Assembly: GCA_021793405.1 (NCBI GenBank)
Contig: JAJYSV010000001.1
Location: 62,001-126,000 of the forward strand
Direction: 5' to 3'
DNA from: Acidobacteriota bacterium
Lineage (GTDB): Bacteria; Acidobacteriota; Terriglobia; Terriglobales; Acidobacteriaceae
Length of the DNA stretch: 64,000 nucleotides
A program made the position numbers and the translations under genes. Shown here piece after piece: positions 2,232 to 43,190 of this stretch. Below the pieces are notes generated by a model, which saw nothing but the letters and a program-made list of their open reading frames with translations, did no database searches and had not been told where the DNA came from. Each line of letters starts with the position of its first letter. Position 1 is the stretch's first letter.

Positions 2232-2272
2232 AGCGGGCTTCGCGCACCATGAATTCGGCAAGCACTCTCTGG

Positions 2273-27072: not shown

Positions 27073-28117
27073 GAAGATCATCTTATGCGCTGATGGAACG
27101 TGGAACAAACCGCATGGTCCGGCAGCCCAGCCCAACGACACCAACGTTCGCAAACTCTACGAATTGGTGCACGACGATCCATCCCAGTTGAAGTACTACG
27201 ACAGCGGCGTAGGCACAGATGGTACCCCCTTCGAGCATTTCTTCGGCGGAAGCATGGGTGCCGGCTTGTTCCAAAAGATCCAGGATGGCTATGCGTTTCT
27301 TTCCTATGTTTGGGATCCAGGGGATGAGATTTATATCTTTGGCTTCAGTCGGGGCGCCTACACAGCCCGAAGTCTGGGCGGGATGATCGCGTCTTTCGGC
27401 GTGCCCAACAGGAACCTTGATAACCAGACCGTTAAGCGCATCTTCGATGCCTATCGAATTACCGACCGCACGCAGCGTTTGGCAACTAAGAATCTCCTGA
27501 ATGCGGACTACGGCCTGGTCGATGTCACCATTCGAATGGTCGGAGTGTGGGATACTGTCGGCGCGCTTGGCATTCCAGGACACTTGTTCGATAGTTTTGA
27601 CCAGGAGAGATACGGGTTCCTCGACACAACCCTCAATCCGTGTATTGAAAAGGCATTTCACGCGATTGCCATTGACGAACGACGAGCCTCCTTTCTCCCT
27701 ACGTTGTGGTCAAATCCAGATGGAACTCCACGAGCCAATGACGACAAGGTGCAGCAGGTGTGGTTCCCAGGCGTGCATTGTGATGTAGGAGGAAGTTACG
27801 CCGAAGCTGAGCTCTCCAACATCACCTTGCGGTGGATGATCGACAAAGCCGAGGCACAAGGCCTGGTCTTCGATCAGACGGCAGTCGACGCCTGTCTCAG
27901 CCCCAAGCCGTTCAATCCTGCAGGCAAGGCTCATGACGAATGGAAGATTATCCCGTGGGGTATGCCAAAACATAGAACGGTCCCGGCGAATGCCGTGCTT
28001 TCTAACACCGTCAAGATTCGGATGGATCGAGATCCCACATACAGACCCGAGAATGTTCTAGGTTGGTCGGTGGATGGCTATGCCATAGCAACGGTCATAC
28101 CCGCTTCGGAACTCTAG
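27065..28117 (+). CDS. DUF2235 alpha/beta hydrolase (Tle1-like)
   Basis: 350 aa. The GTG at 27065 is chosen because GGAGGGG lies directly upstream and the protein then opens KKIILCADGTWNKP, the DUF2235 start. YDSGVGTDG, YIFGFSRGAYTARSLGGMI (nucleophile elbow GxSxG, Ser about 97), VGVWDTVGALG and VWFPGVHCDVGGSY (late Asp/His region) are all present. Related proteins include type VI secretion phospholipases Tle1, but no secretion genes are near. It may be a cytoplasmic lipase or esterase. Confidence 0.88.
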   Translation: MSKKIILCADGTWNKPHGPAAQPNDTNVRKLYELVHDDPSQLKYYDSGVGTDGTPFEHFFGGSMGAGLFQKIQDGYAFLSYVWDPGDEIYIFGFSRGAYTARSLGGMIASFGVPNRNLDNQTVKRIFDAYRITDRTQRLATKNLLNADYGLVDVTIRMVGVWDTVGALGIPGHLFDSFDQERYGFLDTTLNPCIEKAFHAIAIDERRASFLPTLWSNPDGTPRANDDKVQQVWFPGVHCDVGGSYAEAELSNITLRWMIDKAEAQGLVFDQTAVDACLSPKPFNPAGKAHDEWKIIPWGMPKHRTVPANAVLSNTVKIRMDRDPTYRPENVLGWSVDGYAIATVIPASEL

Positions 28118-28331
28118 CAGGCGGATATTGTTTTGACAGTTTCGATTGAAAATTCTCCCGCGTCATTCGGGCGCATTGTCCTCATCATCGTACCGACTCA
28201 GCTAGTGCGGAATCGCCGATGCACTCCGGGAGCCGACCAGGAAACGAGACTACTGTTCCTAGTGAACTGGCACTTAGACTCCTGGTCACCATTGAAGTAG
28301 GAAGTAGCTTCTTTGCTTTGTACATAACGTT

Positions 28332-29064
28332 TCAAGCAGCGGCAAGGATGGCTCGGCCGACGACGCCGGTCAGTCCGTCCTGCGCGGCGAGGGCAGCCTC
28401 ACGAGCCGGATTGTTGAGACCGCGCAGATGGTCGGCAAAATCCCAGGCGAGATCGCGAGCGCGGCAGATGTCCCAGAAGGCGAGCAGTCGCCCGACTTTG
28501 CCCGTATCCTCAGCGAGTACGCCCAACGTGTCGGTTGCGAGCATATTAAGCGCCGAAGGCATAACAGTATTGAGCAACTCGTTGACGGATTGGTAGTCAG
28601 TAGATTCGGGGCTGCCGGGTGCGGGAACGATATTCGAATCGTCGTCTGTGGCCAGCAGGGCCAGTGCGAGGTCGTGGTTGATGTGAGCGTTCATACCCGC
28701 CAGCGCAAACTGGATGCGATCGATGCCGGTGCGGTAGCGGGCCTCAAAAAAATGCGCTCCATGCCGATGGTACCGCCTGTCCACCGAGAGATCCGACGAT
28801 CGCGCGGAAATAAAAGCCGGCAAAGACAACATCGAGGCAATTGAGCCAGACGGGACTCTGCCACGCCCCACCGGGCGGATTGAGATCGACCTGCTGCGTC
28901 ACCATCAGATAGAGAAGGTTGAACCACTTGAGTCCGTCACTCGCCGGCAGCAGCGCGTCAATGGCCTGCATGCGTGCGATGACGTCGGCGATAGTCGTCG
29001 GAGACGGACCGTTGACAAGATCGTAGAGCGGTTGGTCAGCAAGGGACAGGGTGGCGGTGGACAT
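28332..29064 (-). pseudogene. DUF5995 family gene split by a homopolymer frameshift
   Basis: The ATG at 29064 starts a DUF5995 protein (YDLVNGPSPTTIADVIARMQ, GLKWFNLLYLMVTQ, LDVVFAGFYF, SAWSAFF) that hits TGA at about 28744. The next frame continues the family exactly: EARYRTGIDRIQFALAGMNAHINHDLALALL, down to 28332. The break lies in a run of seven T (minus strand; seven A at 28746-28752); with six T the gene would be continuous, about 243 aa. DUF5995 function is unknown. Either an error in the run, a dead gene or slippage. Confidence 0.8.
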
Positions 29065-29548
29065 GCGATGCCTCCAGAAGTGGTCTTGCGAATTACGCTG
29101 CGCATGGGTTCGGTGTCGCTTTCATAGGCCTTTCGCCAGCTCAAAGTGGCAACTCACCTCCATCTGCTTCAGGTTTGTCGCGAATTCATCGAGAATGGCG
29201 ATGGGTCTCCAGAGATGGGCTTGGCTATCCAACCCTTGGAATCCGTCTAGGCTTAAGCAACGAATCGGCAGAATCAAGCGGATTGGTCAGACTCGCGACC
29301 GGGTCGATATGCTTAACCTTGTTTTACCACTCTGCTCGGCTCGCTCCAGCAGTGACAATTCAGGGCGGCCGGGCGATTTGGATTGGCCACTGAAGTCGAG
29401 GTGCTATTGATCATTCCTGGCATCGCGGAATGACCCTCCGATCGGGTCACGTCCTCGGAATGCTGTCATCCCGGGCAGCGGAACAAAGTGAAGCGAAGTA
29501 CGTCTCCGCCAGCATCTTCCCGTCGCTCGTCAAGGAGCTGACAATGTT
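29065..29548. other. Intergenic region, about 480 bp
   Basis: Upstream of the DUF5995 gene and downstream of the debranching enzyme. Several short frames are open, but none looks like protein, and I see no clear repeat or RNA gene. Confidence 0.4.
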
Positions 29549-31714
29549 TTATTCCCGCACGATGATGTCCAGCTCGCCGGACCGGCGCAGCACATTGACG
29601 CCCACCGTCTCCAAGTGGCGCTCGAATGCCAGGTCGACCGTGGATTCGCCGACCCGTAAATTGCGGATTTCAACCCGCCTGAGTGACTCTGGAAGGGCGC
29701 TATGGCAAAGGCGCAGCTGTGATTCGCCCGCGTGAATCGACAGCCCCAGGCAGGCCTGCAGCGCCATAAAGACAGCGCCTGCCGCCCACGCCTGCGGCGC
29801 GCAGGCCACCGGGTACAGTGTTGGTCCTTTGCCTTGCCGCCGGGCAAACCCGCAGATTAGCTCCGGTAATCGATGCAGATCCACAAACAGGGACAGGTTC
29901 AGCAGTCCTGACAGGATACCCAGGGCGAGTTTTTTGTCTCTGCGTTTCCTATCGCCGAAAGAGATCAGGGCATTGTCGTGCGGCCAGACGGAGCCATCGT
30001 GATAGGACATCGGGTTGTAGCGTTTCTCTCCGCTAGCGATCGTGCGGACACCCCATCCGGAAAACATGCCCGGCGACAGCAATGCTTTTGCTGTTTTGGC
30101 CGCCTGTGATTTGGACGTGATGCCGGAAAACAGGCATTGTCCCGCGTTGGAGCTCCGCACCTCGCACTGTCGCTTGTTTCCATCCAGTGCCATGGCAAAC
30201 ATCCCCAGCTCGTCCGACCAGAAGGCTGCGGAAAACCGGCTGCGCAGGGTTTCCGTCTCTAATCTAAGCCGCTTCGCCAATTCAGCATGGCCCAGGTCTT
30301 CGGCGGCCTTTGCAATCTCGTTTTTGGCCGCATAGACATACCCCTGCACCTCACAGAGCGCAATGGGGGCAGCGGCCAGCGTTCCATCGCTGTGAAATAC
30401 GGAATCCTGAGAGTCTTTCCAGCCTTGTTGGACTAGTCCGGCCTTGTTCTTCTGGGCATACTCCACAAAGCCGTCCCCGTCGGTATCGCCGTAGCGGTCG
30501 ATCCAGTCGAGCGCGGCCAGAATGTTCGGCCAGATACTGCGCAGAAATTCGGAATCCGCGGTGCGCTCGTAATAGGAGGCGGCCAGCAGAACAAACAGCG
30601 GAGTCGAATCCACGCTGCCGTAGTACCGTCCAAACGGGACCTCGCCGAGCTTAGCCATCTCGCCTTTGCGGGCCTCGTGCAAAATCTTGCCGGGCTCCGC
30701 CTCTCTCTCCGGGTCGACGCTCGTCGCCTGCGTTGCCGCGAGATAAGACAGGACACCCTTGGCCACGTCGGGCGCCAGCCATAGCAACTCCAGGGCGGTG
30801 ATGATGCCATCGCGTCCGAAAACCGTGCTGAACCACGGCACGCCCGCATACGGATATGGCCCAAATTCGGTCTGGCTAAGCATCATCTCCAAGTCCGAGC
30901 GAGAACGGTTGAGCCAGTCGTTGAACTGTTCGTTCGAGGTGTAGACATCAACCTGGGCCAGAGGCGAAGCGTCGCGCTCGGTCTGGACGGTGTGCAGCGC
31001 TTCCTCGAAGCGGACCGTGTTCGCTTTTTGGCCGTTCTGCTCGCAGATCACATCCAGCATGAATACGGTTTCTTCTCCAGGGTCGAGCCGGATCGGAACC
31101 GTAATCTCTTCGTTTCGGATCCTGACCGACTCTGCGCGGCACCGAATCACTGCGCTCCGCATAACGTGATCCAGCCCGATGTACGCCAGCAACAGGCCGT
31201 CGCTCTCCGTCTCCAGTGGAAGATATCTCCCGCGATGCTCCCGCGTCTGCCCGCGCACCTCGAAAATGTCCTTGAAATCTGCCCCGAATGCGAATGACAG
31301 CTCGACCTCCACTCGCTGGGGTCCGAAGTTCTGCACCCCGATCCGGTCGAAGCACGTCCTTTCAGCAAGGAACTTGTTGCGGCGGATATGCAAGATGCCA
31401 CGCTTCAACTCCCCTGACGGCAGTTCCATGTCTGGGTTGGTGAGGTCGACCGTCACCATCACATTGTCTTCACTGGTCGTCGAGCTCAGCAGAAGCGGCT
31501 TATGTCCGCTGACCTCTATCTCCAGCTTGGACAAATAGCGGGTCCCCTCATAGAAAAGCCCCTGCTGACCCAGGCCCACCGGCTGAATGTCTCCGTAGCG
31601 GTCGAAGACGGCGAAGGTATCGTTGTGCAGCAGCACCAGTGTGCGGGTATCGGCAAGCGACGACTCCGCGCGGATGTAAAACTGATTTTCGTGTTCGATA
31701 ACATCGGGTCTCAT
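29549..31714 (-). CDS. Amylo-alpha-1,6-glucosidase (glycogen debranching enzyme family, GDE_N_bis)
   Basis: 721 aa. The N-terminal beta-sandwich (NDTFAVFDRYGDIQP, LFYEGTRYLSKLEIEV, about 30-230) is followed by an (alpha/alpha)6 toroid from about 265: PYAGVPWFSTVFGRDGIITALELLWL with the catalytic-site GRDG, FVEYAQKNKAGLVQQGWKDSQDSV, and YNPMSYHDGSVWPHDNALI. The motifs fit GH63/GH133-like debranching enzymes that remove alpha-1,6 branches. Its start overlaps the stop of the GT4 gene by 4 bp (ATGA), so the two are an operon; the pairing suggests metabolism of an alpha-glucan-type storage or surface polymer. Confidence 0.9.
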   Translation of the reverse strand: MRPDVIEHENQFYIRAESSLADTRTLVLLHNDTFAVFDRYGDIQPVGLGQQGLFYEGTRYLSKLEIEVSGHKPLLLSSTTSEDNVMVTVDLTNPDMELPSGELKRGILHIRRNKFLAERTCFDRIGVQNFGPQRVEVELSFAFGADFKDIFEVRGQTREHRGRYLPLETESDGLLLAYIGLDHVMRSAVIRCRAESVRIRNEEITVPIRLDPGEETVFMLDVICEQNGQKANTVRFEEALHTVQTERDASPLAQVDVYTSNEQFNDWLNRSRSDLEMMLSQTEFGPYPYAGVPWFSTVFGRDGIITALELLWLAPDVAKGVLSYLAATQATSVDPEREAEPGKILHEARKGEMAKLGEVPFGRYYGSVDSTPLFVLLAASYYERTADSEFLRSIWPNILAALDWIDRYGDTDGDGFVEYAQKNKAGLVQQGWKDSQDSVFHSDGTLAAAPIALCEVQGYVYAAKNEIAKAAEDLGHAELAKRLRLETETLRSRFSAAFWSDELGMFAMALDGNKRQCEVRSSNAGQCLFSGITSKSQAAKTAKALLSPGMFSGWGVRTIASGEKRYNPMSYHDGSVWPHDNALISFGDRKRRDKKLALGILSGLLNLSLFVDLHRLPELICGFARRQGKGPTLYPVACAPQAWAAGAVFMALQACLGLSIHAGESQLRLCHSALPESLRRVEIRNLRVGESTVDLAFERHLETVGVNVLRRSGELDIIVRE

Positions 31715-32811
31715 CGAATATGCATTCTCCCTTTTTTGGCCACGTCGGCGGAGGAGAGGAACTCCCCGACGCAGGGATCATGCTCTCGACTCCCGATCCG
31801 CCGGTAAATTTCAATGTAGTCGTGGCACATTCGGCGCGCGCTGAAGCGGTCTTCAAACACCTTGCGAATCTTTAGACGATTCAGGGCCGGGATTCGTCCT
31901 ACGGCTTCCACGGCATCCTCCATATTGTCCACGATATACCCGCTGACGCCATCGTCGATCACCTCCGGCACAGAACCCCTGCGGTAGGCAATTACAGGCG
32001 TGCCGCATGCCATGGCTTCGGTCATCACCAGCCCGAATGGTTCCTCCCAGTCGATCAGGAAGAGCAAGGCATAGGCGTTTCCGAGGAACTCCGATTTTTC
32101 GGATTCGCTGATTTCGCCCATGTATTCGACAAGAGGATCGCGCAAAAGTCCGCGAATATGGCTCTCGAAATAATCCCGGTCGACCGCGTCGATCTTTGCC
32201 GCGATCTTGATGGGCATGCCGACTCGGCGGGCAACCTCAATCGCTCGATCGACCCGTTTTTCCGGCGAAATGCGGCCCAGGAATGCCAGATATTGTCCTG
32301 GCTGTTCCTTTGCGGTGTGCAGGTCCTCGGGCAGTCCGTGATGCACCGTGCCCACCCAGTTCGCCCACTCCATCGGCAGCCGCTGGGCGTCTGAAATGGA
32401 CACCAGATTCATTTCCGGAAACTCCCGGAAAAGAGGGTGCAGATCGGGAATATCCAATCGCCCGTGTAGCGTCGTGACGGATACAAAATTCTGCCGGCGC
32501 GTTACCGGAAAGTGCAGGTAATCGATATGAAAATGCACCACATCGAAGTCGCTTGCTTCCTGGGCCACCATCTCCAGCATGCGTATATGGTGGGCCAGCG
32601 GGTCGATGACGTTTTTGCCCTCCAGCCGCAATGCCCGGGAACACATGGGACGCAGTTCGGCCGTGGTCACCGAATCGGCGCTCGCAAACAGGGTCACCTC
32701 ATGACCTTGCCGGACCAATTCGTCAGTGAGATACGCAACCACTCGCTCCGTTCCTCCGTACATTAAAGGAGGCACACTTTCGTACAACGGAGCGACCTGG
32801 GCGACTTTCAT
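31711..32811 (-). CDS. GT4 family glycosyltransferase
   Basis: 366 aa, GT-B fold. N-terminal acceptor domain opens MKVAQVAPLYESVPPLMYGGTERVV with the Gly-rich loop; FHIDYLHFP and TTLHGRLDIPDL follow. The donor domain has YLAFLGRISPEKRVDRAIEVA (about 194) and the nucleotide-sugar-binding EEPFGLVMTEAMACGTPVIAYRRGSVPEVI (about 268), the E-x7-E motif of GT4. It is the first gene of a two-gene operon with the debranching enzyme. The C-terminal 25 residues are an unusual Asp/Lys-rich tail. Confidence 0.9.
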   Translation of the reverse strand: MKVAQVAPLYESVPPLMYGGTERVVAYLTDELVRQGHEVTLFASADSVTTAELRPMCSRALRLEGKNVIDPLAHHIRMLEMVAQEASDFDVVHFHIDYLHFPVTRRQNFVSVTTLHGRLDIPDLHPLFREFPEMNLVSISDAQRLPMEWANWVGTVHHGLPEDLHTAKEQPGQYLAFLGRISPEKRVDRAIEVARRVGMPIKIAAKIDAVDRDYFESHIRGLLRDPLVEYMGEISESEKSEFLGNAYALLFLIDWEEPFGLVMTEAMACGTPVIAYRRGSVPEVIDDGVSGYIVDNMEDAVEAVGRIPALNRLKIRKVFEDRFSARRMCHDYIEIYRRIGSREHDPCVGEFLSSADVAKKGRMHIR

Positions 32812-33297
32812 AAGTTTTCTCCTTGCGTATCCGTTCTACAAGGGACCCGCATCAGTTTTCTTGTTCAGTTAGATGAGGATTTCAGCACGATCGACTAGCC
32901 GGCGGTGAGATAGATCACGACGAAGCCGATCATTAGAGGGAAAATCGCAATCAAAACTGTTGCGATTCAACAGCATCGCAAGGTGAGAATGAAACCGACG
33001 AAAAGCTGCAGCACTCCAGCGAGCCGCTTCCAGGAGCCGAATTTCACGCCCGGAACCGCTCGAAAGCGTTTCGCAAAAACAAATTATCATAAAGGAACGA
33101 GGCGCAGCTGGACACCCCGCTGCCATCGTTGCGCGTGGTTCGTGTGCTGGACCGGCTGCGGCTGGAACGAGGACTGCCGGAGCGGATCGTCATCCGGGTA
33201 TCTAGTGCCGGAAACGATAGATCACGTATTTTGCTAAAAAACTTCTCTCCTATTCCGGAGGCAAGAACTGACTCCCAGGACCGGGTCCGGAGGGCCG
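32812..33297. other. Non-coding stretch before the inverted repeat
   Basis: About 480 bp upstream of the GT4 gene. A TTTTGCTAAAAAAC string (33234-33247) recurs inside the repeat at about 33459. I see no supported gene. Confidence 0.45.
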
Positions 33298-33493
33298 GAA
33301 CTGGTCCGCATGGTGGAGTTTCTGTTGCGGCGGGCGGGGGCGGGAGAATGGGAGACAGGCGACCCGGAAAAGAGCCAGGTTGATCGTGCTTGATAGAAGG
33401 CAGAACAGAAAGCAGGAACCTTCCACGTTTGATCCTGCGAAATAATAATTCCGGTGTTTTGCTAAAAAACCTTATACTAGGTCGGGCATTTCG

Positions 33494-33772
33494 ATGGAGA
33501 CGCGAGTCTCTAAGTTGTTGATAAGTTCTAAAAAGTGCCGTCTTCCGCCATTTGAGATACAAATCCTCGAGGCGAGCTGGAAGGCAGGAAACAACTATTT
33601 TGAAGATTTTTATGCTTTTTTCCGCCTCGTTTCGGATGCAACACAGGGTCTGGAAGGGGTCGAGGAGGCTACCGCCCAGGCTAAGGCGGACTGTTTCCCT
33701 GCTTTCGAGGGGGATCTCCCCTTCCTTCATGGCAGGAATATTCCTCTATGTAATTGCAAGGAATTAAGTTAG
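33494..33772 (+). CDS. Possible 92-aa protein in repeat copy A
   Basis: The product is protein-like (PPFEIQILEASWKAGNNYFEDFYAFF, then LEGVEEATAQAKADCF), and the corresponding stretch in copy B (42720-42968, minus) encodes a similar sequence but with a one-base frameshift after LQASERP. Differences between copies are often conservative in this frame, hinting at past coding. There is no good ribosome site. It may equally be structured non-coding DNA of the element. Confidence 0.3.
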   Translation: METRVSKLLISSKKCRLPPFEIQILEASWKAGNNYFEDFYAFFRLVSDATQGLEGVEEATAQAKADCFPAFEGDLPFLHGRNIPLCNCKELS

Positions 33773-34033
33773 ACGAGTTTCAGCCCTCCATCTTCCGTGA
33801 AAAATCCTCTATCCTGCTGAAATACGATGATTTACCGTCTTCCTGGCGCAGCTTCGCTCGCGAGAGAATGCCTCTATCTGAATGAAAATGAAGAAGAAGT
33901 GGAATCGTGACATTCCGGCTAGATGAGGCCGATCCGACCCGGAGGGGGAAAGTCCCCTGAAAACTGCTGTCGGCCACTGAAACAAGGCAGCTCACCGGCT
34001 TTCCCGTGCCGCTTCGCTCGACTGGGAATATTT

Positions 34034-34609
34034 CTATCTAGTTGAAAAAGAGGGAGAATCGTGGCATTCCGACTGGTCGCGGCGCATCCCGGCCCGGCAG
34101 GGTCGGGACTGCCTCCCGCGGGCGCGAGGAGTTTTCTGTGCGGCGGAACAGAGGCACCTGGTCATATTGGGGGTAGCCGCATCGACCGAAGCGTTGACCA
34201 CATTGGAATACACCAGCGTCCCGTCTTTCCACACGCTCAGAACTCCGGCGCTGTACCAGATCTGATAGCGGGTGCCTGCATCGGCGGTGACGTCGCTGAA
34301 GGTGATGTCAAAACCAGCAGTGGTTGTACCCGCCGTGGTGTCGAGACCCACACCCTTGAGGACCATGGGCTTGGCGCCGCAACGGAAGGCCTGAATGTTG
34401 TCGGAGTTGGTGGCGCACTCTTCAATGCCGCGCTCGAGCGATCCGGAGAATCCGAACTGCTTGGCGGCCAGAGCACGGTCCGTCACCTGGTAAGGGGTGT
34501 TGATTATTCCCTGGCCGGCGGTGCCGATGATGAGGATGGAATCGTCCTCAGGGGCAAAAGCGGCTGTCAGGCCGCCATCGAGGGTATTAACAATGACCCC
34601 TGGAAGGTT
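34034..34609 (-). pseudogene. Tail-sheath-like gene fragment, copy A
   Basis: The frame opens after a stop with NLPGVIVNTLDGGLTAAFA and continues through DSILIIGTAGQGIINTPYQ, ALAAKQFGFSGSLERGIEE and TAGFDITFSDVTADAG. LPGVxVxxLDGG plus a VxGTAxxGxxNTPYxV strand is the opening of contractile-tail sheath proteins. No start codon precedes it, and after about 130 residues the frame runs into the repeat-rich spacer, so both ends are missing. Homology to sheath proteins is my recognition and needs a profile search. Confidence 0.5.
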
Positions 34610-34626
34610 CGATATCGAAATTTAAT

Positions 34627-34639
34627 ATATCTCAGATAT
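34627..34639. promoter_or_regulatory. Palindrome ATATCTCAGATAT, candidate recombinase site
   Basis: A perfect 6+1+6 palindrome 26 bp before the recombinase ATG. Its core TCTCAGATA recurs in direct orientation at 35316-35324, just after the recombinase stop, and equivalent motifs flank the recombinase in copy B (41848-41858 and 41162-41170). The arrangement fits crossover or regulatory sites. Confidence 0.5.
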
Positions 34640-34664
34640 GTGATATGCTCATCTCATACCCTCC

Positions 34665-35300
34665 ATGAAGCGTGCCGCCTTGTATCTGAGAGTCTCGACC
34701 CTCGATCAGCACCCGGAAACGCAGCTGCTCGACCTTCGCCAGATGGCCACGCAGCGCGACTACGAGATCGTCCATGAGTATACGGATCGGATCTCCGGTG
34801 CCAAAGCCAGGCGTCCGGGTCTCGACGAAATGATGGCCGATGCCCGCCGCGGCCGCTTCGATGTGGTGTTGGTCTGGGCTTCAGACCGTCTGGCAAGGTC
34901 AGTCAAACACTTCCTGGAAGTGCTCGATGAGTTGAATCGTATCAATGTCGAGTTCGTAAGTTTCCGCGAACAGATCGATACCGGCGGCCCACTGGGTCGG
35001 GCGGTCGTGGTGATTATCGGCGCCATCGCGGAACTCGAACGCAATCTGATTGTTGAGCGGGTGCGCGCCGGCATGCGCCGCGCGAAGCTCGAAGGCCGTC
35101 ACATTGGCCGCAAACCACTCGACCTCGATCGCATCGGGATCCTGCGGGATCGAACTCAAGGACAGAGCCTCGGCCAGCTCGCCAAGAGTTATCGCGTCTC
35201 CCGCGCCACCATCCATCGCGTTCTGCACCCGCCGGCCTCGGGTGCAGAAAAGCTCCCGTCGACAGGTGTTCCAGAAGGCCTCGAAAAACAGGCCTCTTAA
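34665..35300 (+). CDS. Serine recombinase (resolvase/invertase family), copy A
   Basis: 211 aa. Complete small serine recombinase: nucleophile Ser in AALYLRVSTLDQHPETQ (about residue 11), VLVWASDRLARSVKHFLEVLDEL, FREQIDTGGPLGRAVV, AELERNLIVERVRAGMRRAKLEGRHIGRKP (helix E) and a C-terminal HTH (GQSLGQLAKSYRVSRATIHRVL). It is of the Tn3-resolvase/Hin-Gin type. It is divergent from the sheath-like fragment. About nine in ten residues match the copy at 41186, so the copies have diverged but both remain intact. Confidence 0.94.
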   Translation: MKRAALYLRVSTLDQHPETQLLDLRQMATQRDYEIVHEYTDRISGAKARRPGLDEMMADARRGRFDVVLVWASDRLARSVKHFLEVLDELNRINVEFVSFREQIDTGGPLGRAVVVIIGAIAELERNLIVERVRAGMRRAKLEGRHIGRKPLDLDRIGILRDRTQGQSLGQLAKSYRVSRATIHRVLHPPASGAEKLPSTGVPEGLEKQAS

Positions 35301-35451
35301 CTTCAACAGAATCAGTCTCAGATAGGTCCAGTTTTGCTGTTCCACAAGCTGTGGGTTAAGAGACAACCAAGAGGCGAGCAGACGAGTGATCACGCCCTTA
35401 TCGGGCACGCTTGATAGGGAAAACAAATCGAGTTCAGAACGAGAGGAAACT

Positions 35452-35538
35452 ATGACACCGAACCTTGCCAGATACATCCGAATTGCCCGCCACCCTCGAC
35501 GTCAGCTCTCATCCAGCCCGCGGAGAGGCACAAGCTGA
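35452..35538 (+). pseudogene. 5' stub of the 130-aa accessory gene, copy A
   Basis: MTPNLARYIRIARH matches the first 14 residues of the protein at 40662-41054, including the GAGAGGAAACT leader. The sequence then departs at 35493 and stops after 29 codons. It marks the inner boundary of repeat copy A. Confidence 0.7.
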
Positions 35539-35680
35539 GGAGATTCGCCGCCGCGTCTTTACTTCTGTCTTTGAAATCGGATCATGATGACCGCTGATGC
35601 CGATGTCGAACCTTTCGCGCGCTTGATTGAGGGCCGTTCGAGCCGGGTCCGGCCATCGTTCAGGGCGGGCCGAGGCGCGT

Positions 35681-35941
35681 TCAGCGGTAGGCTTCACGGC
35701 GATGGTTGACGGCCAGGACGAGGATGGAGTTGCCGTAGTCATAGAATCGGACGCGGTAGTCGCCGACGCGCAAGCGCAGTTCGGGCGGCTTGATGTCCTG
35801 GAGGCGCTTCACGTCGCCTTCGCCTGAGGCGAGATAGCGGGCGACGGTGTGCAGGATGCGCAGCGCCGTGGGCTGATCGATGGCGCGCAGATCGGCCTTA
35901 GCCTGATCGGTCCAGGCAACGCTCTTCTTGCCCATGCTCAC
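35681..35941 (-). CDS. RelE/ParE-type toxin
   Basis: 86 aa. SVAWTDQAKADLRAIDQPTALRILHTVARYLA (helical hairpin), LQDIKPPELRLRVGDYRVRFYD and ILVLAVNHRREAYR form the RelE/ParE barrel. The C-terminal His/Arg-Arg-Glu-x-Tyr is the usual RelE-type ending. RelE toxins cleave mRNA at the ribosome; ParE relatives poison gyrase, and sequence alone does not decide. Its ATG overlaps the antitoxin stop by 4 bp. Confidence 0.9.
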   Translation of the reverse strand: MSMGKKSVAWTDQAKADLRAIDQPTALRILHTVARYLASGEGDVKRLQDIKPPELRLRVGDYRVRFYDYGNSILVLAVNHRREAYR

Positions 35942-36258
35942 TGTCCGGGGTGGTGCGGTTCAGGTTCGAGCGGGGTCTGTCCCATGCGCTCGAAGTCTTC
36001 GGCGGTGAGGCCGAACTCGGCCAGGACTTCCTCGTTGGGGATGGGTTCGTGATCCTTGAGCCAGGCCTTGGAAGCGGCAACGGCGCGGGTCTCTTCCTCG
36101 CTGATTTCTTCGTCCTCGAAGGGCGCGTTGGCGATGGCGCGGTCCACCGGATCGAGCATGGATGTAATCAGGGTGACGACGGCGGAGGCCTGCGCGGTGG
36201 ATATGCGCTCGATAAGTTCGTGAGCCTGCTGCTTCGGGTTGGTTGCGGCGGTTGCCAT
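35938..36258 (-). CDS. Antitoxin partner of the RelE-type toxin
   Basis: 106 aa from the ATG at 36258, which has AAGG 9 nt upstream; the open frame before it is not coding-like. The N-terminal half (QQAHELIERISTAQASAVVTLITSML) is helical and probably contacts DNA or dimerises. The acidic middle (FEDEEISEEETRAVAASKAWLKDHEPIPNEEVLAEFGL) is typical of RelB-like toxin-neutralising tails. The antitoxin-first order and 4-bp overlap support a type II pair. Confidence 0.85.
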   Translation of the reverse strand: MATAATNPKQQAHELIERISTAQASAVVTLITSMLDPVDRAIANAPFEDEEISEEETRAVAASKAWLKDHEPIPNEEVLAEFGLTAEDFERMGQTPLEPEPHHPGQ

Positions 36259-36607
36259 CGGGGAATCCTTCTCTCTAATCCTGAGCCGCAGCCAGGAATT
36301 TATCAATCGTGGTCAGCAAAGCCCACTGTTCATAGGAGGCAGCGCCTCAATCTGTTCGATGCGGCGCTGCACCTTGAGGCTGGGCTTCTTGCTGGCGGGC
36401 TTCTTCAATCCAAGGGTAGTTTCTGCACAGTGGGCCTCTTCGGAGCAGTTTATGGCGTACCCCCAATAATCCTTGACGTAATACTACTGCATATTCCATT
36501 GGATGTGGCCCACTTCACCGGAATACGCAAAAGGACCGGAACGATATTAAATTAACGCTCGAATCCGCAGTGCATGATTTGCGCGCGGTATCGGTCGCCA
36601 GGAATGC
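36259..36607. other. Spacer within the toxin-antitoxin block
   Basis: About 350 bp. It holds a 9-bp inverted repeat, GCCCACTGT at 36321-36329 and ACAGTGGGC at 36427-36435. A short minus frame between them would encode a Lys-rich peptide (KKPASKKPSLKVQRRIEQIE); I do not call it a gene. Confidence 0.4.
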
Positions 36608-37144
36608 TTACGCTGCCGCTTTGAGGTTGTAGGTATAGCCGTTTTCAGCGTGGTCCAATTGGACGCGCACAGGATTGGTTTTCGATTCAATCGCGCTGAG
36701 GTGCTGCAAGATGGCGTCGTAGCGTCCAAGTCGCTTGAGCTTATCGAGAAGCGTGGGCTCATGAACAAGGGCGAGCATTCTCACCAGGCGATCAGTCTGT
36801 CGGCTAATCGCCATCGCTCCATTCTCCACTCTTGAAAGATGGGAACGATCGATCCCGAGCATTTGTGCAAACGTCCCGCTTCCTTCATCAAGGAATTTCC
36901 TGAGGAATCGAACCTCATCCCCGGCTAGTTCTGACGGCTTGTCAATGAGCGCTACGGCAATGGTCCGTATCAAGTCGTCGTGGTTCAATATCCTTGGCGA
37001 CTCGCTCTTGCACTTTGGACAGACCACCACTTCAATGTCCCTGAGAAAGACGTTGTTCAATCCGCTTTCTATAAAGCGGTAGTCCTTGTGTACGATCTTG
37101 GCATTGCCGCCGCACTCCCGGCATACCCGCTGCTTTGCTTTCAT
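36608..37144 (-). CDS. MqsA-like antitoxin (YgiT zinc finger plus HTH)
   Basis: 178 aa. N-terminal zinc ribbon: VCRECGGNAKIVHKDY with one CxxC and VVCPKCKSESPRI with a second (about 42). A central Xre-type HTH follows: TFAQMLGIDRSHLSRVENGAMAISRQTDRLVRML (about 90-123). The C-terminal 45 residues are an extension not seen in standard MqsA. It lies 18 bp downstream of the DUF4258 gene and would neutralise it and repress the operon. Confidence 0.86.
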   Translation of the reverse strand: MKAKQRVCRECGGNAKIVHKDYRFIESGLNNVFLRDIEVVVCPKCKSESPRILNHDDLIRTIAVALIDKPSELAGDEVRFLRKFLDEGSGTFAQMLGIDRSHLSRVENGAMAISRQTDRLVRMLALVHEPTLLDKLKRLGRYDAILQHLSAIESKTNPVRVQLDHAENGYTYNLKAAA

Positions 37145-37162
37145 GATGCCCCCTTTTCCCGC

Positions 37163-37468
37163 TTACCGCCTATCGAGCATGATTGTGATGACGAGCACTT
37201 CATCCCTCTCCAAAAACGCGATTACCACCTTTAGCTTGTCGCTATCCGGCGGTTTTCCTTCGACTTTATAGCGCCATTCCTGGAAGCGGATGTCCAACTC
37301 CGGCTCGTCATATATGAAGCCATTGCGGAGTACATATTGTGCATCCCGCGGATCAACGCCGCGCTCCCGGCACCGCCGCTCGAAATGCGGGTGGTATTCA
37401 ACAATGCCGCCCTGCAAGCACTTACGCAGGAGTTTGAGCGCATCCGTTTTGCTGACTCGCGGAACCAT
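37163..37468 (-). CDS. DUF4258 family putative toxin
   Basis: 101 aa from the ATG at 37468; a start 11 codons upstream is possible but would lie within the operator. FERRCRERGVDPRDAQYVLRNGFIYDE (about 31-57) and VVIAFLERDEVLVITIML show the DUF4258 barrel, which is related to RelE/MqsR-type RNase toxins. The HFxxR (PHFERRC) motif at residues 29-35 is the likely catalytic centre. Toxin-first order with a YgiT-type antitoxin is typical of MqsRA-like pairs. Confidence 0.82.
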   Translation of the reverse strand: MVPRVSKTDALKLLRKCLQGGIVEYHPHFERRCRERGVDPRDAQYVLRNGFIYDEPELDIRFQEWRYKVEGKPPDSDKLKVVIAFLERDEVLVITIMLDRR

Positions 37469-37473
37469 TCCTA

Positions 37474-37490
37474 TGTGATAATATATCACA
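37474..37490. promoter_or_regulatory. Inverted repeat TGTGATA-ATA-TATCACA before the DUF4258 gene
   Basis: Perfect 7-bp arms around ATA, 6 bp upstream of the chosen start. Position and symmetry fit an autorepression operator bound by the MqsA-like HTH. Confidence 0.6.
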
Positions 37491-37593
37491 TCAACAGTCA
37501 ATCAAGCCGCCCAGCAGAACGGTCCTTTCACCCCTCAGCCTCCCCCTTCTCCCTGTTCCACAAGCTTGCGGTTGGGGAACAGTCCACACGACC

Positions 37594-37650
37594 AGAATGG
37601 GTGAAAATGGGTTAGATTGTGGTTCGATAGAATGGGTGCAATTGGGTGTA
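37594..37650. promoter_or_regulatory. Two 22-bp direct repeats upstream of fic
   Basis: AGAATGGGTGAAAATGGGTT-AG (37594-37615) and AGAATGGGTGCAATTGGGTG-TA (37629-37650), starts 35 bp apart, end 12 bp before the fic ATG. Candidate operator for the Fic protein's own C-terminal HTH or another regulator. Confidence 0.5.
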
Positions 37651-37662
37651 TCCTTGGGTGTC

Positions 37663-38712
37663 ATGCTCCAATCCACCTCGCTTCAGATCACGCCAGAAAT
37701 ACTCGGCCTGATTTCCGAACTCGATGAATTCAAAGGCGCATGGCGAGCATCGGGGACACTGTCGCCGGACCGTCTCTCCGCGCTCCGGCGACTCGCCACC
37801 ATCGAAAGTATCGGGTCATCCACACGTATCGAAGGCAGCCAGCTCTCCGACCGTGAGGTCGAACGGTTGCTTTCCAACCTCGAAATCAAATCCTTCGATA
37901 CTCGGGACGCACAGGAAGTCGCAGGCTATGCGGAAACTATGGAGTTGATCTTCCGATCATGGCAAGAGATTGCTCTCACAGAAAATCACGTCAAGCAACT
38001 GCATCGCGACCTGCTCCGATACAGCGAGAAGGATGCACATCACCGTGGCGAATATAAAACCCAGCCGAACAGCGTGGTGGCATTGAACGAAGCCGGCGAG
38101 CAGGTTGGTATTGCGTTTGAAACAGCGGCGCCGTTCGATACGCCGCGCCTGATGACGGAAGCTGTGGCCTGGGCGAAAGACGCGCTGGAAACCCGGCAGC
38201 TACATCCCCTGCTGGTGACAGCCATCTTCATCGTCGTCTTCCTTGAGATTCATCCCTTCCAGGACGGCAACGGGCGGCTGAGCCGGATTCTAACGACGCT
38301 GCTGTTGTTACGCACGGGATACGCCTACGTGCCATATAGCTCACTGGAAAGTGTGATTGAACAGAGCAAGGAGAGCTACTATCTCGCTCTGCGGCAGACA
38401 CAGGGGACGATCAGAACCGAGAGTCCGAACTGGCAGCCCTGGTTGCTGTTCTTCCTGCGCGCGCTTCAGCAGCAGATGAAACGCCTGGCTAGAAAAGTTG
38501 AGAGAGAGAGAATCGTACTGTCGGCCATGCCGGAACTGTCCGTGCAAATCGTGGAGTTTGCACGCGAACACGGCAGGGTCACCATTGGCGACATCGCTAC
38601 GCTGACCGGCACGAGCCGGAATACGCTCAAGCCGCATTTCCGGCATTTATCGGAAAAAGGACACCTCGTCCTGCATGGCCGCGGGCGTGGCGCCTGGTAT
38701 GCGCTGCCATAA
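37663..38712 (+). CDS. Fic family protein, self-inhibited class, with C-terminal winged helix
   Basis: 349 aa from the ATG at 37663. The N-terminal inhibitory motif (S/T)xxxE(G/N) is present in GSSTRIEGSQLSDREVERLL (about 50-69). The active-site loop HPFQDGNGRLSR (about 197) is canonical HxFx(D/E)GNGRxxR, so AMP transfer should be possible when inhibition is relieved. A wHTH (RVTIGDIATLTGTSRNTLKPHFRHL) closes the protein. Such Fic-wHTH proteins modify target proteins and often autoregulate. Its last 60 codons are duplicated at 39707. Confidence 0.92.
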   Translation: MLQSTSLQITPEILGLISELDEFKGAWRASGTLSPDRLSALRRLATIESIGSSTRIEGSQLSDREVERLLSNLEIKSFDTRDAQEVAGYAETMELIFRSWQEIALTENHVKQLHRDLLRYSEKDAHHRGEYKTQPNSVVALNEAGEQVGIAFETAAPFDTPRLMTEAVAWAKDALETRQLHPLLVTAIFIVVFLEIHPFQDGNGRLSRILTTLLLLRTGYAYVPYSSLESVIEQSKESYYLALRQTQGTIRTESPNWQPWLLFFLRALQQQMKRLARKVERERIVLSAMPELSVQIVEFAREHGRVTIGDIATLTGTSRNTLKPHFRHLSEKGHLVLHGRGRGAWYALP

Positions 38713-39010
38713 TGTAGGCGGCAAAATCATATGAATGAGCGAAGTCTCCAATTCACGGTCAAAGCGGGATAATATTGAGTCCGGGAATGCGCCCAGCCAG
38801 CCTTGCAATTTCCAGCGTCAGTGGATATACGGCAACGGTTCGATAGAGCTCTTCGACGAAGGCTTCTCTCCGCCGAAGGTGAGCTTCTGTTTTGGACCGG
38901 TATACGAGTGCGTCGATTCAACGGCGGTCACAACCGAGAGCGCCGAAACAGCTTCTCCTCGCACCGACTGCACACGCTCGAGAATCTCCCACACCGTGTC
39001 CCCGCGACGT
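38713..39010. other. Spacer between fic and higA
   Basis: About 300 bp. Frames are open on both strands, but the products are Arg/Ser-rich and not protein-like. No repeat recognised. Confidence 0.4.
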
Positions 39011-39334
39011 TTACTCCTCCCCTATACGGACGCGCTGAAAAGCTGAACCGGGCAACGAAAAGCGACCTACCCGGATCTCCTTCTCACGCTTCCGCGTCTG
39101 AGCGATATCGTAGGACGACTGCATCCGCATCAAGGTGTCCATCTTGACGCCGAAGACTTTCTCCACGCGCAGCGCCATGTCGCCGGAAAGGCCGGCCTTC
39201 CCATTGAGCAAACTGGACAAGGTAGGCCGCGATACGCCCAACAGATTGGCAGCCGCAGTGACCGTTAATCCCGCGGCCTCGACGATCTCCGTCCGGATAA
39301 AGTCTCCGGGGTGTGGCGGGTTCTTCATGGGCAT
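39011..39334 (-). CDS. higA: HigA-type antitoxin
   Basis: 107 aa from the ATG at 39334 with GGAGAG 8 nt upstream. Opening PMKNPPHPGDFIRTEIVEAAGLTV is the HigA/VapI signature, followed by the HTH TAAANLLGVSRPTLSSLLNGKAGLSGDMALRVEKVFG (about 28-64). It binds DNA and neutralises HigB. The last 15 residues are a basic tail. It lies 20 bp downstream of higB. Confidence 0.93.
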   Translation of the reverse strand: MPMKNPPHPGDFIRTEIVEAAGLTVTAAANLLGVSRPTLSSLLNGKAGLSGDMALRVEKVFGVKMDTLMRMQSSYDIAQTRKREKEIRVGRFSLPGSAFQRVRIGEE

Positions 39335-39354
39335 AACCGTTCTCTCCTTCGCGT

Positions 39355-39645
39355 CTAGTGGTAATCTTCCAAATTCACGTCGCAAATCTCGCGCTCGGCA
39401 AGGTCAATCCGAAATGTCAACCGCCGATTGGCGGTAACGCTCAGGCTCCACGTGCCTTTGCGATCGCCGGTAAGGGTGTGAGCTTTCCAGGAGGGGAGCA
39501 TCCGCAATTCTTCCGGGTCTTCCATTTCGTCGAGAAATGCCAGCATCTTGCGCAGTTTGTCCACAGTGTCGGGTGGAACGCCTCGCACTCTGTCATCTGC
39601 GTAGAGCTTCTTCAGACCCTTATGAATGAAATTCCCCACCCGCAT
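39355..39645 (-). CDS. higB: HigB-type toxin
   Basis: 96 aa from the ATG at 39645; the long open frame upstream is not coding-like. FIHKGLKKLYADDRVRGVPPDTVDKLRKMLAFLDEM is the HigB/RelE helical part, LPSWKAHTLTGDRKGTWSLSVTANRRLTFRI the barrel with catalytic-type His and Arg residues, and CDVNLEDYH the usual ending. HigB cleaves mRNA on the ribosome. Toxin-first order is normal for HigBA. Confidence 0.93.
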   Translation of the reverse strand: MRVGNFIHKGLKKLYADDRVRGVPPDTVDKLRKMLAFLDEMEDPEELRMLPSWKAHTLTGDRKGTWSLSVTANRRLTFRIDLAEREICDVNLEDYH

Positions 39646-39706
39646 TGCAACCACTGTAGCCCGTAGCCTAACACTTGTCAATTGCGCCGGCGACGATTCC
39701 GGCTTT

Positions 39707-39897
39707 ATGGCTACTCCGGAACTGTCCGTGCAAATCGTGGAGTTTGCACGCGAACACGGCAGGTCACCATTGGCGACATCGCTACGCTGACCGGCACGAA
39801 CTGGAATACGCTTAAGCCGCATTTCCGGCATTTGTTGGAGAAGGGACACCTCGTCTTGCATGACCGCGGCCGCGGCGCCTGGTATGCGCTGCCATAA
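39707..39897 (+). pseudogene. Duplicated 3' end of fic with a one-base deletion
   Basis: The DNA repeats the last 185 bp of fic (38528-38712): PELSVQIVEFAREHGR is restored, then one G is missing relative to fic (CAGGTCACC against CAGGGTCACC) and the frame changes, and VTIGDIATLTG...GRGAWYALP resumes in the other frame. HigBA sits between the two copies. This records a past duplication or insertion. Confidence 0.75.
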
Positions 39898-39981
39898 GAT
39901 CTCTATGTCTTTGAATGCATTAGGCTTGGCGAAGCAATGCGGATGTGGTAAGATTTCCTTGTTTCCTTGAATGAGGATATC

Positions 39982-40206
39982 ATGCTGGCTAAGAAGACTA
40001 CCAAAAACCAGATCACCCTCCCCAAGACGGTGATCACTCGTTTCGCCGGGGTGGAATACTTCGACGTGAGCACGGATGGGGAGTGCATCATTTTGCGTCC
40101 ATTGCAGCAGAGCCGTGCCGATGAAGTGCGGGCCCGGCTTGCGGAACTTGGGATTGACGAAGGGGACGTTGCAGCCGCCGTTTCCTGGGCGCGTAAAACC
40201 GCGTGA
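39982..40206 (+). CDS. AbrB/SpoVT-type antitoxin
   Basis: 74 aa from the ATG at 39982 with AGGA 6 nt before it. KKTTKNQITLPKTVITRFAGVEYFDVSTDGECIILRPL is the swapped-hairpin AbrB domain, here with longer loops than in AbrB. The C-terminal RARLAELGIDEGDVAAAVSWARK would bind and block the toxin. It overlaps the PIN gene by 4 bp (GTGA). Confidence 0.88.
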   Translation: MLAKKTTKNQITLPKTVITRFAGVEYFDVSTDGECIILRPLQQSRADEVRARLAELGIDEGDVAAAVSWARKTA

Positions 40207-40622
40207 GCCGACGTGTGGTCTTCGACACGACGACAGTCGTCTCGGCCCTCTTATTTGCAAATGGTAGCTTGCGGTGGTTGCGGCAGCACTGGCGGGAGGG
40301 TGGCTGTGTGCCTTTGGTCTCTCGCGCAACCGTTTCGGAACTTACACGGGTTTTCGGATATCCGAAATTTCAGCTGTCCATGAATGAACGTCGAGAGCTG
40401 TTGGCCGAATATCTTCCTTACTGCGACGTCATCGAGTTGACAGAGAAATGCATTCCTGTGTGCCGGGACGCAAACGATCAGCCATTTCTCGACCTGGCCC
40501 AAAGCGGCAGAGCCGACGTGCTGGTCAGCGGCGATCGAGATCTGCTGGCACTGGCCGGGCAAACAACATTTCTCATCGAAACTCCTGAAGCATATCTGCG
40601 CAGAGTATCCGAAGTTGTCTGA
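40203..40622 (+). CDS. PIN-domain toxin (VapC-like)
   Basis: 139 aa beginning with GTG inside the antitoxin stop. Acidic metal ligands of the PIN fold are visible: Asp8 in VVFDTTTVVSALLF, Glu in ATVSELTRVF (about 46), Asp in QPFLDLAQSGRADVLVSGDRDLLAL (about 98 and 111). PIN toxins are endoribonucleases that act on tRNA, rRNA or mRNA. The C-terminal AYLRRV is usual for this subgroup of putative PIN toxins. Confidence 0.92.
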   Translation: MSRRVVFDTTTVVSALLFANGSLRWLRQHWREGGCVPLVSRATVSELTRVFGYPKFQLSMNERRELLAEYLPYCDVIELTEKCIPVCRDANDQPFLDLAQSGRADVLVSGDRDLLALAGQTTFLIETPEAYLRRVSEVV

Positions 40623-40661
40623 ACTATACAAGGGATCCAGGTACTTTCTGAATCAGGCCAC

Positions 40662-41054
40662 TCACCGGAAAGTCGCGCGGTCCAAGGCGTCACCGATCGC
40701 GACGAGGAGATGATCGGTCAATTGCTGCCGGTCTTGATCCGGCAGTACCGTAAGTAGAACCTTATCTCCATTCAGCTCATGAAACAGACGACAGCCTTCG
40801 TCCTGGTGAGCCAGGAGGAAGCTGTGGCTATCCACCGAGAACTGAACCGAGGCTCCGATTGCGTCGTCCCAGGACCAGTTTCCGGGAGCAAACAGTTCCA
40901 TCCGGACTGAAATGTCTATCTTCCGCACGACGTAAGTTTGGAGGTCCTCAATCGCACTGATCCTTTGCTGCTCGATCCGGCTTTCTTCATCCAGCGGTGT
41001 GCCATGAACATGGTGGCGAGCAATTCGGATGTACCTTGCCAGGTTCGGGGTCAT
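40662..41054 (-). CDS. 130-aa accessory protein of the repeat module, unknown
   Basis: It has GAGAGGAAACT before the ATG, a feature shared with the stub in copy A. The protein is soluble and mixed alpha/beta: IEQQRISAIEDLQTYVVRKIDISVRMELF, SWDDAIGASVQFSVDSHSFLLAHQ, LLTVLPDQDRQQLTDHLLVAIGDAL. No family recognised. The first 41 bp belong to inverted repeat B, the rest is unique. Confidence 0.7.
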   Translation of the reverse strand: MTPNLARYIRIARHHVHGTPLDEESRIEQQRISAIEDLQTYVVRKIDISVRMELFAPGNWSWDDAIGASVQFSVDSHSFLLAHQDEGCRLFHELNGDKVLLTVLPDQDRQQLTDHLLVAIGDALDRATFR

Positions 41055-41185
41055 AGTTTCCTCTCATTCGGAATGTCGATCTATTTCTTGTAAATAAAGC
41101 GCTTGCGTTGAACCTGTTGCTGTCTCATAACCCACACGTTGTGGAACAGTAAAACCACATCTATCTGAGACTGATTCTGTTGGGG

Positions 41186-41821
41186 TTAAGAGGCCTGTTT
41201 TTCGAGGCCTTTTGAAACACCTGCTGGGGGGAGCTTTTCTGGACCGGAGGCAGGGGGGTGAAGAACGCGATGGATAGTGGCGCGGGAGACTCGGTAGGTC
41301 TTCGCCAGTTGACCGAGGCTCTGTCCTTGAGTTCGATCCCGCAGGATGCCGGTGCGATCGAGCTCGAGCGGTTTGCGTCCAATATGACGGCCTTCGAGCT
41401 TGGCCCGGCGCATTCCGGCGCGCACCCGCTCGACGATCAGGTTTCGTTCGAGCTCTGCAACGGCGCCGACGATCACGATGATGGCGCGGCCCAGTGGACC
41501 ACCGGTATCGATTTGTTCGCGGAAACTGACAAACTCGACATTGAGATGATTGAGTTCGTCCAAGACTTCGAGGAAGTGTTTCACCGACCGGGCCAGACGG
41601 TCGGAGGCCCAAACCAAGACCACATCGAAGCGGCCGCGGCGGGCGTCTTGCATCATTTCGTCCAGACCAGGGCGCCTGGCTTTGGCACCGCTGACCTTAT
41701 CGGTATACTGCCCGACGATTTCGTAATCGCGCTGAACCGCCATCTGCTGGAGATCATAGAGCTGGGTTTCGGGGTGCTGGTCGAGGGTGGAAACTCGTAA
41801 ATACAAGGCGGCGCGCTTCAT
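41186..41821 (-). CDS. Serine recombinase, copy B
   Basis: 211 aa, all motifs as in copy A: nucleophile in LYLRVSTLDQHPETQLYDL, WASDRLARSVKHFLEV, IDTGGPLGRAIIVIVGAVAELERN, helix E and the terminal HTH GQSLGQLAKTYRVSRATIHRVL. About 22 substitutions from copy A, mostly conservative (Ile/Val, Asp/Glu, Lys/Arg), which suggests selection on both copies. It is divergent from the sheath-like fragment at 41877. Confidence 0.94.
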   Translation of the reverse strand: MKRAALYLRVSTLDQHPETQLYDLQQMAVQRDYEIVGQYTDKVSGAKARRPGLDEMMQDARRGRFDVVLVWASDRLARSVKHFLEVLDELNHLNVEFVSFREQIDTGGPLGRAIIVIVGAVAELERNLIVERVRAGMRRAKLEGRHIGRKPLELDRTGILRDRTQGQSLGQLAKTYRVSRATIHRVLHPPASGPEKLPPAGVSKGLEKQAS

Positions 41822-41876
41822 GGAGGGGTTGAAATCAGCATATCATCTATCTGAGATACATGAAAGGCCGATTTAG

Positions 41877-42707
41877 AACCTTCCAGGGGTCATTGTTAAC
41901 ACCCTCGATGGCGGCCTGACCGCCGCTTTTGCCCCTAAGGACGATTCCATCCTCGTGATCGGCACCGCCGGCAAGGGAGTGACAAACACCCCCTACCAGG
42001 TGACAGACCGGGCTCTGGCTGCGCAGCAATTCGGATTCTCCGGAACCCTGGAACGCGGCATTGAAGAGTGCGCCACCAACTCCGATAACATTCAGGCCTT
42101 CCGTTGCGGCACCAAGCCCATGGTCCTCAAGGGTGTGGGTCTCGACACCACGGTGGGTACAACCACTGCTGGTTTTGACATCACCTTCAGCGACGTCACC
42201 GCCGATGCCGGCAGCCGTTATCAGATCTGGTACAGCGCCGGAGTTCTGAGCGTGTGGAAAGATGGGACGCTGGTGTATTCCAACGTGACCAACGCTTCGG
42301 TGGATGCGGCTACCCCCAATATGAGCAGGTGCCTCTGTTCCGCCGCACATAAAACTCCTCGCGCCCGCGGGAGGACCCGTCCCGACCCTGCCGGGCCGGG
42401 ATGCGCCGCGACCAGTCGGAATGCCACGATTCTCCCCCATTTTCAACTAGATAGAAATATTCCCAGTCGAGCGAAGCGGCGCTGGAAAGCCGGTGAGCTG
42501 CCTTGTTTCAGTGGCCGACAGGAGTTTTCAGGGGACTTCCCCCTCCGGGTCGGATCGGCCTCATCTAGCCGGAATGTCACGATTCCACTTCTTCTTCATT
42601 TTCATTCAGATAGAGGCATTCTCCTTCGAGCGAAGCTGCGCCAGGAAGACGGTAAATCATCGTATTTCAGCAGGATAGAGGATTTTTCACGGAAGATGGA
42701 GGGCTGA
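41877..42707 (+). pseudogene. Tail-sheath-like gene fragment, copy B
   Basis: The frame opens after a TAG with NLPGVIVNTLDGGLTAAFA, DDSILVIGTAGKGVTNTPYQ and later TAGFDITFSDVTADAGS, WYSAGVLSVWKDGTLVYSN. The sheath-like part ends near residue 140 (TPNMSRC), after which the frame continues by chance into the repeat-rich spacer. A start at the GTG/ATG within the frame (41955) is possible but lacks a ribosome site. Broken at the same two points as copy A. Confidence 0.5.
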
Positions 42708-43190
42708 AACTCGCCTAACTTAATTCCTTGCCGCAACATAGAGGAAATTTACAGCCAGGAAGGAAGGGGACCTCCCCCTCGAAAGCGGCAAACCAGTCCG
42801 CCTTAGCCTGGGCGGTAGCTTCCTCGACCCCTTCCAGATCCTGTTTTGCATCCGAAACGGGGCTGAAAAAAGCACAAAAATCTTCAAAATAGTTGTTTCC
42901 GGTCTTTCGCTCGCCTGCAGGATTTGTATTTCAAATGGCGGGAAAGGGCTGTTTTCAGAAATTATCAATAACTTAGAGGCGATGACCTGACCGAAATGGC
43001 CCGACCTAGTATAGGGTTTTTTAGCAAAACACCGGAATTATTATTTCGCAGGATCAAACGTGGAAGGTTCCTGCTTTCTGTTCTGCCTTCTATAAAGAAG
43101 ACCAACCTGGCCCCTTTTCCGGGTCACCTGTCTCCCATTCTTCCGCCCCGCCCGCCGCAACAGAAACTCCCCCACCCGCGGACCAGTTCT

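Follow-up and report, generated by a model that had tools for sequence, protein, structure and literature searches.

Integrons comprise the tyrosine integrase IntI, an attI site and attC cassettes. In CRISPR-Cas adaptation, a host locus stores pieces of phage genes, and phage satellites such as PICI and PLE are small elements tied to one phage group. Here we describe a serine recombinase module of soil Acidobacteria that repeatedly holds a piece of a virion gene, in a fixed slot and in a fixed direction; a tail-sheath fragment in the DNA analysed is one example.

The window, a stretch of 64,000 nucleotides from a member of the Acidobacteriaceae (contig JAJYSV010000001.1), contains two inverted copies of a unit of about 2.2 kb, at about 33306-35494 and 41012-43149 plus edges, with arms that are 87-93% complementary. 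Along the forward strand, the parts are:

33306 to 34111: distal non-coding part of copy A, common to both copies and partly repetitive
34112 to 34163, minus strand: 3' border element of copy A (ACCAGGT...AAAACTCCTCGCGC...); 48.8 bits, E 3.4e-13 with border model R1, of which it is a training sequence
34163 to 34609, minus strand: insert of copy A, a tail-sheath gene fragment (residues about 9-152 of 738), with no start codon
34610 to 34664: divergent intergenic region of copy A, from insert to recombinase, with the TATCTCAGATA motif
34665 to 35300, plus strand: serine recombinase of copy A, 211 aa, with a Resolvase domain and a C-terminal helix-turn-helix (HTH)
35301 to 35494: right end of copy A, in which a conserved gene persists only as its first 14 codons
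35495 to 40661: segment between the inward-facing recombinases, with ParE-like, MqsA-like (below cut-off), DUF4258, Fic and HTH genes
40662 to 41054, minus strand: 130-aa gene downstream of recombinase B; a relative adjoins the copy in genome G008
41186 to 41821, minus strand: serine recombinase of copy B, 90% identical to that of copy A
41877 to 42323, plus strand: insert of copy B, the same sheath fragment as in copy A (by alignment and protein search)
42324 to 42375, plus strand: 3' border element of copy B; 47.2 bits, E 1.1e-12 with R1, also a training sequence
42376 to 43180: distal non-coding part of copy B

The 130-aa gene has no Pfam match at 0.01. Inside the segment between the recombinases, a 136-nt direct repeat (at 38577 and 39762) suggests a duplicated Fic gene end.

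Each insert has 149 open codons, without a start, and is divergent from the serine recombinase. The copy A fragment aligns with residues 9-152 of the full-length 738-aa sheath of an IMG/VR phage contig (L031) at 66% identity (66-67% for both copies), and matches PHROG "tail sheath" families with E-values of 4.5e-6 and 3.5e-5; the full-length relative itself matches the identical PHROG at 9e-30. Alignment and profile matches thus bear out the resemblance to a contractile-tail sheath that a sequence-only reading of this DNA had proposed, with only about the first 20% of the sheath present. That reading placed the fragment at 34034-34609; the sheath part extends to about 34163-34175, and 34034-34162 consists of conserved border and an unrelated frame. 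A fragment is indeed shared by both copies, of about 145 residues rather than 130. Alignment of the copies (93% identical as protein) agrees that the start codon is missing and the break points are identical, and the common downstream cut point is the conserved 3' border element of about 52 nt. Copy B has a stop codon immediately ahead of the fragment, and the earliest in-frame start in copy A is a GTG about 40 codons into it. BLAST extends copy B weakly to sheath residue 215, beyond the 3' border, which we treat as chance.

A full-length version elsewhere in the genome, also considered in that reading, was not found: protein search of the genome returned two matches only, namely the two fragments themselves. 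Among 100 genomes (this one and its relatives), one further genome matched, G008, from another species of the genus, with two segments at one locus. This locus (L032/L045) has the sheath fragment, borders and recombinase as in the window, as has locus L044. G008 also has the downstream gene, and its fragment is longer in frame by roughly 100 aa of additional sequence. We therefore reject an origin as chance debris, because of this orthologous copy and because the arrangement recurs with fixed orientation and borders. The fragment belongs to the element, as had been supposed, and a role as donor or recombination segment is possible. Read by eye from translations, the G008 copy adjoins apparent cas1 and cas2 genes and a CRISPR array (G008:C409, about 1000-3100).

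The recombinase of the window matches PF00239 (1.6e-43), HTH_7 (3.2e-5) and PHROG 125, "DNA invertase". Its catalytic domain with R9 and S11, its DRxARS motif and its C-terminal HTH place it in the resolvase/invertase family; R9, S11, D74, R75 and R78, which we take to be the catalytic residues, are invariant across 14 aligned rows. In many relatives, a small HTH gene and a gene of the ribbon-helix-helix (RHH) type come before the recombinase. Both are absent from the window group, with a short region containing TATCTCAGATA in their place. The sequence TCTCAGATA flanks the recombinase in the window copies (34630 and 35317) and is also present downstream in L043, and TCTCAGA takes its upstream place in L044/L045. 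As recombination sites these repeats were rejected, since the window group alone was seen to have them on either side of the gene.

Scanning genomes with the recombinase as query yielded 30 loci; almost all are in metagenome-assembled genomes of Acidobacteriota, and one is labelled Bacillota. Comparison with the phage of L031/G100 showed that many loci have, upstream and on the opposite strand, DNA similar to other genes of its virion region. For counting inserts, the queries were six-frame segments of G249 (0-211.6 kb), of G100 and of two further phage stretches. A virion-cluster fragment lies within 2.5 kb upstream of the recombinase in 27 of 42 loci, on the opposite strand in 27/27, and downstream in 0/42; the few downstream matches fall outside the virion cluster. 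Three of the 42 loci (L108-L110) came from a phage-gene search and L114 from a weak DNA match (24/38 without these four), and the 27 include near-duplicates (L044/L045 and the identical L033 pair). L114, in the genome of the window (G000:C130, 3920-4336), is an HTH-RHH pair with the recombinase cut off. In the other 15 loci no virion insert was detected; most have broken genes or lack upstream DNA, and L036 and L058 are intact.

All detected inserts originate from the virion cluster, in this one orientation and with this anatomy. They map to 152-179.5 kb of G249 or the equivalent region of other phages and represent head, tail and other virion-cluster genes, a restriction that may partly be detection bias, since virion genes are the well-conserved phage genes. 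Insert length is about 200-650 bp, usually with one insert per cassette; a single frame is open in 18 of 26, and the remaining 8 have a frameshift or stop.

Loci of the HTH type have a CCAAAG-like sequence (read as CTTTGG on the module strand) where the insert starts. Towards the module, this is followed by an operator-like palindrome (ATGAGTACATACTCAT and its variants), then by a TTGACA-like box and the start of the HTH gene. The frame of the insert varies relative to this 5' border (by eye). At the distal end, many loci have the conserved element of about 52 nt, ACCAGGT[C/G]TC...GTCCTGCCGGCA...AAAA..CCTCGCGC..GCGCG, which occurs after inserts from different, unrelated genes. Model R1 of this element was built from 13 copies and is sequence-only, because RNAalifold gave no pairs; the E-values of these 13, window copies included, are not independent tests because they match by construction. 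A genome search with the 3' border alone led to a further cassette, G030:C25, in which an insert and the start of a recombinase were then recognised. Other independent finds include L220, L224, L230 and L238, and L225, L226 and L231 were loci already known. R1 has no match in eight loci with inserts (L038, L048, L050, L055, L061, L108, L110 and L123) nor in L047, where the inserts run off the contig, and weak matches in L052 and L033. Compared with shuffled sequences, folding of the 3' border is better than most in 3/6 loci (z about -2) and shows no advantage in the window copies (z 0.04 and -0.10). A structure common to the border copies was set aside for lack of consensus pairs, and neither the window stretch nor six loci matched Rfam. 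A second 3' border lies farther out in L040 (2571-2618) and L051 (5557-5598), with no recognisable insert between, possibly from an older cassette. Tandem cassettes in these loci were rejected, the DNA between the borders giving one weak phage match only (E 0.006).

Searches starting from phage genes lead back to the module. A head protein had three matches in 200 genomes of the family, 3/3 beside the module. A second gene, which we call sheath-adjacent because its PHROG label, "major head protein", conflicts with its tail-tube-like place, had 12 distinct strong places in overlapping draws of 200 family and 399 class genomes, nine of them beside the module; weak matches at residues 36-140, an Ig-like Big_2 domain, were excluded. 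The other three are a place with a weak 3' border only (G041:593357), a contig end and a degenerate copy in the genome of the window. In that genome, a degenerate sheath-adjacent fragment lies at L112 (G000:C137, 3969-4124). A protein of about 1700 aa had 29 matches at 27 distinct places in 398 family genomes: 15 have module parts within 1.5 kb, all divergent, five have a 3' border only and seven have neither, so the module was undetected at 12/27. No full-length gene for any of these three proteins was found in the host genomes searched.

The contents of the slot change. The recombinases of L035, L038 and L039 are about 91% identical, and their inserts are two different parts of a head gene and the sheath-adjacent gene. 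Insert turnover thus outpaces recombinase divergence in at least one group, and a single ancestral insertion inherited vertically is ruled out because such similar recombinases carry different genes. On a tree of 24 recombinases, with many weakly supported nodes, six insert labels require at least 10 changes, five being the least possible; none of 200 shuffles was as low (mean 14.3). The labels are therefore clustered, and inheritance plays a part.

The source phages form one group, represented by seven IMG/VR loci, and inserts are closest to different members of it. The L123 insert has 91% DNA identity over 511 bp, from codon 4 of the gene, to phage contig L121. L123 lies at one end of a 214-kb contig (G249). 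A sheath gene of the phage group and a tyrosine-integrase-like gene are on this contig too, which we interpret as a prophage adjoining host DNA. This phage's own version of the gene has only 36% protein identity to the insert; in this single case, the neighbouring phage does not match the insert. A tyrosine-integrase-like protein is also encoded in the window (19673-20956, minus strand), and the beginning of this protein, judged by eye, looks similar to the terminal integrase-like gene of G249.

These data bear on whether the module once resided inside prophages of the group, the host loci being what remains after prophage decay. The supply of all inserts by a single phage group, the frameshifts in several of them and the presence of phage and module on the G249 contig would fit such an origin. 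However, a prophage remnant with its own recombinase would have relatives of it in related phages, and the recombinase was found in 0/7 phage records, an empty answer that alone shows nothing; its only close IMG/VR relative is located beyond an integrase-like gene, in apparent host DNA (by eye). The virion DNA is moreover one-sided, conserved borders adjoin different inserts and the genomes searched gave no full-length gene. We consider decay of this kind an improbable origin.

Wherever two modules were seen on one contig, they face inward: in the window, L033/G041, L047, L059, L064 and G524. The outward-facing inserts of G693 are consistent with such a pair, and the two module copies in the one-contig genome L033/G041 read alike. 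The G041 pair (L033, 5300-12100) encloses Thoeris-like ThsB proteins and candidate defence proteins. As judged from their open reading frames, the L047, L059 and L064 pairs enclose ordinary genes, and a rule of defence cargo was rejected. L224 (G587:C110, 1452-2225) has two outward-facing pieces of the ~1700-aa gene about 185 bp apart, each with a 3' border and with no module between, resembling a collapsed inverted pair.

Inward-facing pairs of a resolvase/invertase-family recombinase might flip the enclosed segment in the manner of Gin or Hin, with the sheath DNA incidental, and the sequence-only reading had been reminded of Gin/Mu-type tail systems. That likeness was not supported: no invertible tail-fibre gene was seen, toxin-antitoxin-like and Fic genes are enclosed, and homologous loci carry fragments of other virion genes. 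Enclosed genes vary without pattern among pairs (toxin-antitoxin-like, Thoeris-like and others) and inversion leaves the inserts unexplained, making it very unlikely as the purpose of the arrangement.

Alternatively, an excised element might recombine with a phage genome through the insert, be packaged as a cointegrate and so reach new hosts, in effect plasmid facilitated transduction occurring naturally. Such hitch-hiking is consistent with phage homology beside a recombinase, with the recurrence of inward-facing pairs around chromosomal segments and with inserts whose closest relatives are different phages of one group. It does not predict a single fixed orientation or virion-only inserts, though, and an internal fragment integrating by a single crossover would interrupt the carrier's own virion gene; the excised form remains putative. 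We rate it as rather unlikely.

The inserts could also act as protein. The 32 differences between copies A and B fall 8/4/20 on the three codon positions, a third-position bias (chi-square p 0.0015), and dN/dS in the sheath frame is 0.21 (A-B), 0.39 (A-C) and 0.44 (B-C), C being the G008 copy. In the two shifted sense frames it exceeds 1, and in one antisense frame it is 0.34-0.48. Identity between A and B is patchy, with 96% at 34162-34400, 90% at 34400-34609 and 80-88% in the recombinase. Translation could explain the low dN/dS and the third-position bias, and so could divergence in phages that preceded capture. Expression of a truncated, dominant-negative virion protein, its coding frame under selection, would agree with these values and with the 18/26 inserts open in a single frame. 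Yet a protein product is weakened by the lack of a conserved start, the variable frame and the 8/26 disrupted inserts; the pre-capture alternative would leave an identical signal, and the antisense frame has similarly low values. That selection acts on such a protein seems doubtful.

Fixed sense orientation and virion-gene origin indicate a use against, or with, these phages. Because 8/26 inserts are disrupted and the frame is not fixed by the border, we rank interference with matching phages first, without choosing its route, followed by homology-based hitch-hiking and prophage relics; interference is our best guess for the function, judged from sequence. The platform is the recombinase gene, in many relatives behind the small HTH and RHH genes, and the slot divergent from it holds one virion-cluster gene fragment from the large-phage group. 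Infecting phages would be the source of the inserts, with the recombinase or a repair process perhaps responsible for capture, and sense transcription would start in the divergent promoter region, where the operator-like palindrome of HTH-type loci is located. Either fragment RNA or a truncated virion protein might mediate interference, or else the internal fragment might recombine into the phage gene. For the sheath fragment, capture from a phage as a cassette insert, sense transcription and interference as the likeliest use together make a reading that we favour tentatively, its chance falling a little short of even. A stronger version, a phage memory in which a serine recombinase updates the bordered slot with sense virion fragments of large temperate phages and so blocks matching phages, would be unlikely. 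Inserts that act on phages would give bacteria a CRISPR-independent way to store and swap pieces of virion genes; inserts that serve transfer would instead make this an element built for carriage by large phages. Each locus names its phage gene, and in one case (L121/L123) a near-identical phage.

We know of no system with this arrangement, and the listings and abstract openings from literature searches showed no description of such a cassette. Like a CRISPR-Cas locus, it is a host locus with pieces of phage genes that differ among related hosts. However, CRISPR-Cas adaptation does not share its inserts of about 200-650 bp in fixed sense orientation from virion-cluster genes only, and the module is without repeat array and Cas proteins; no tandem repeats were found at 28000-48000 of the window, and no cas genes were seen by eye among open reading frames near its copies. 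Phage satellites are likewise small elements tied to one phage group, but gene fragments only were seen in the cassette, with no packaging, replication or capsid genes. A decayed prophage would also leave virion gene pieces within a bacterial chromosome; the cassette differs in being one-sided and bordered, with a constant module and no other adjoining virion gene. With Gin/Hin invertases and Tn3 resolvases it shares the recombinase family and inverted copy pairs, whereas its module has HTH and RHH genes and phage inserts, and the window segment holds toxin-antitoxin-like, Fic and HTH genes rather than the alternative tail-fibre ends of Gin/Hin/Mu inversion. Integrons have the tyrosine integrase IntI where the cassette has a serine recombinase, and complete open reading frames where it has internal fragments of phage genes, usually one per locus, recombination at the border being putative. 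Common to both are a recombinase gene divergent from the cassette slot with the promoter region between, uniformly oriented inserts and, behind them, a conserved border, which may form a hairpin in some loci.
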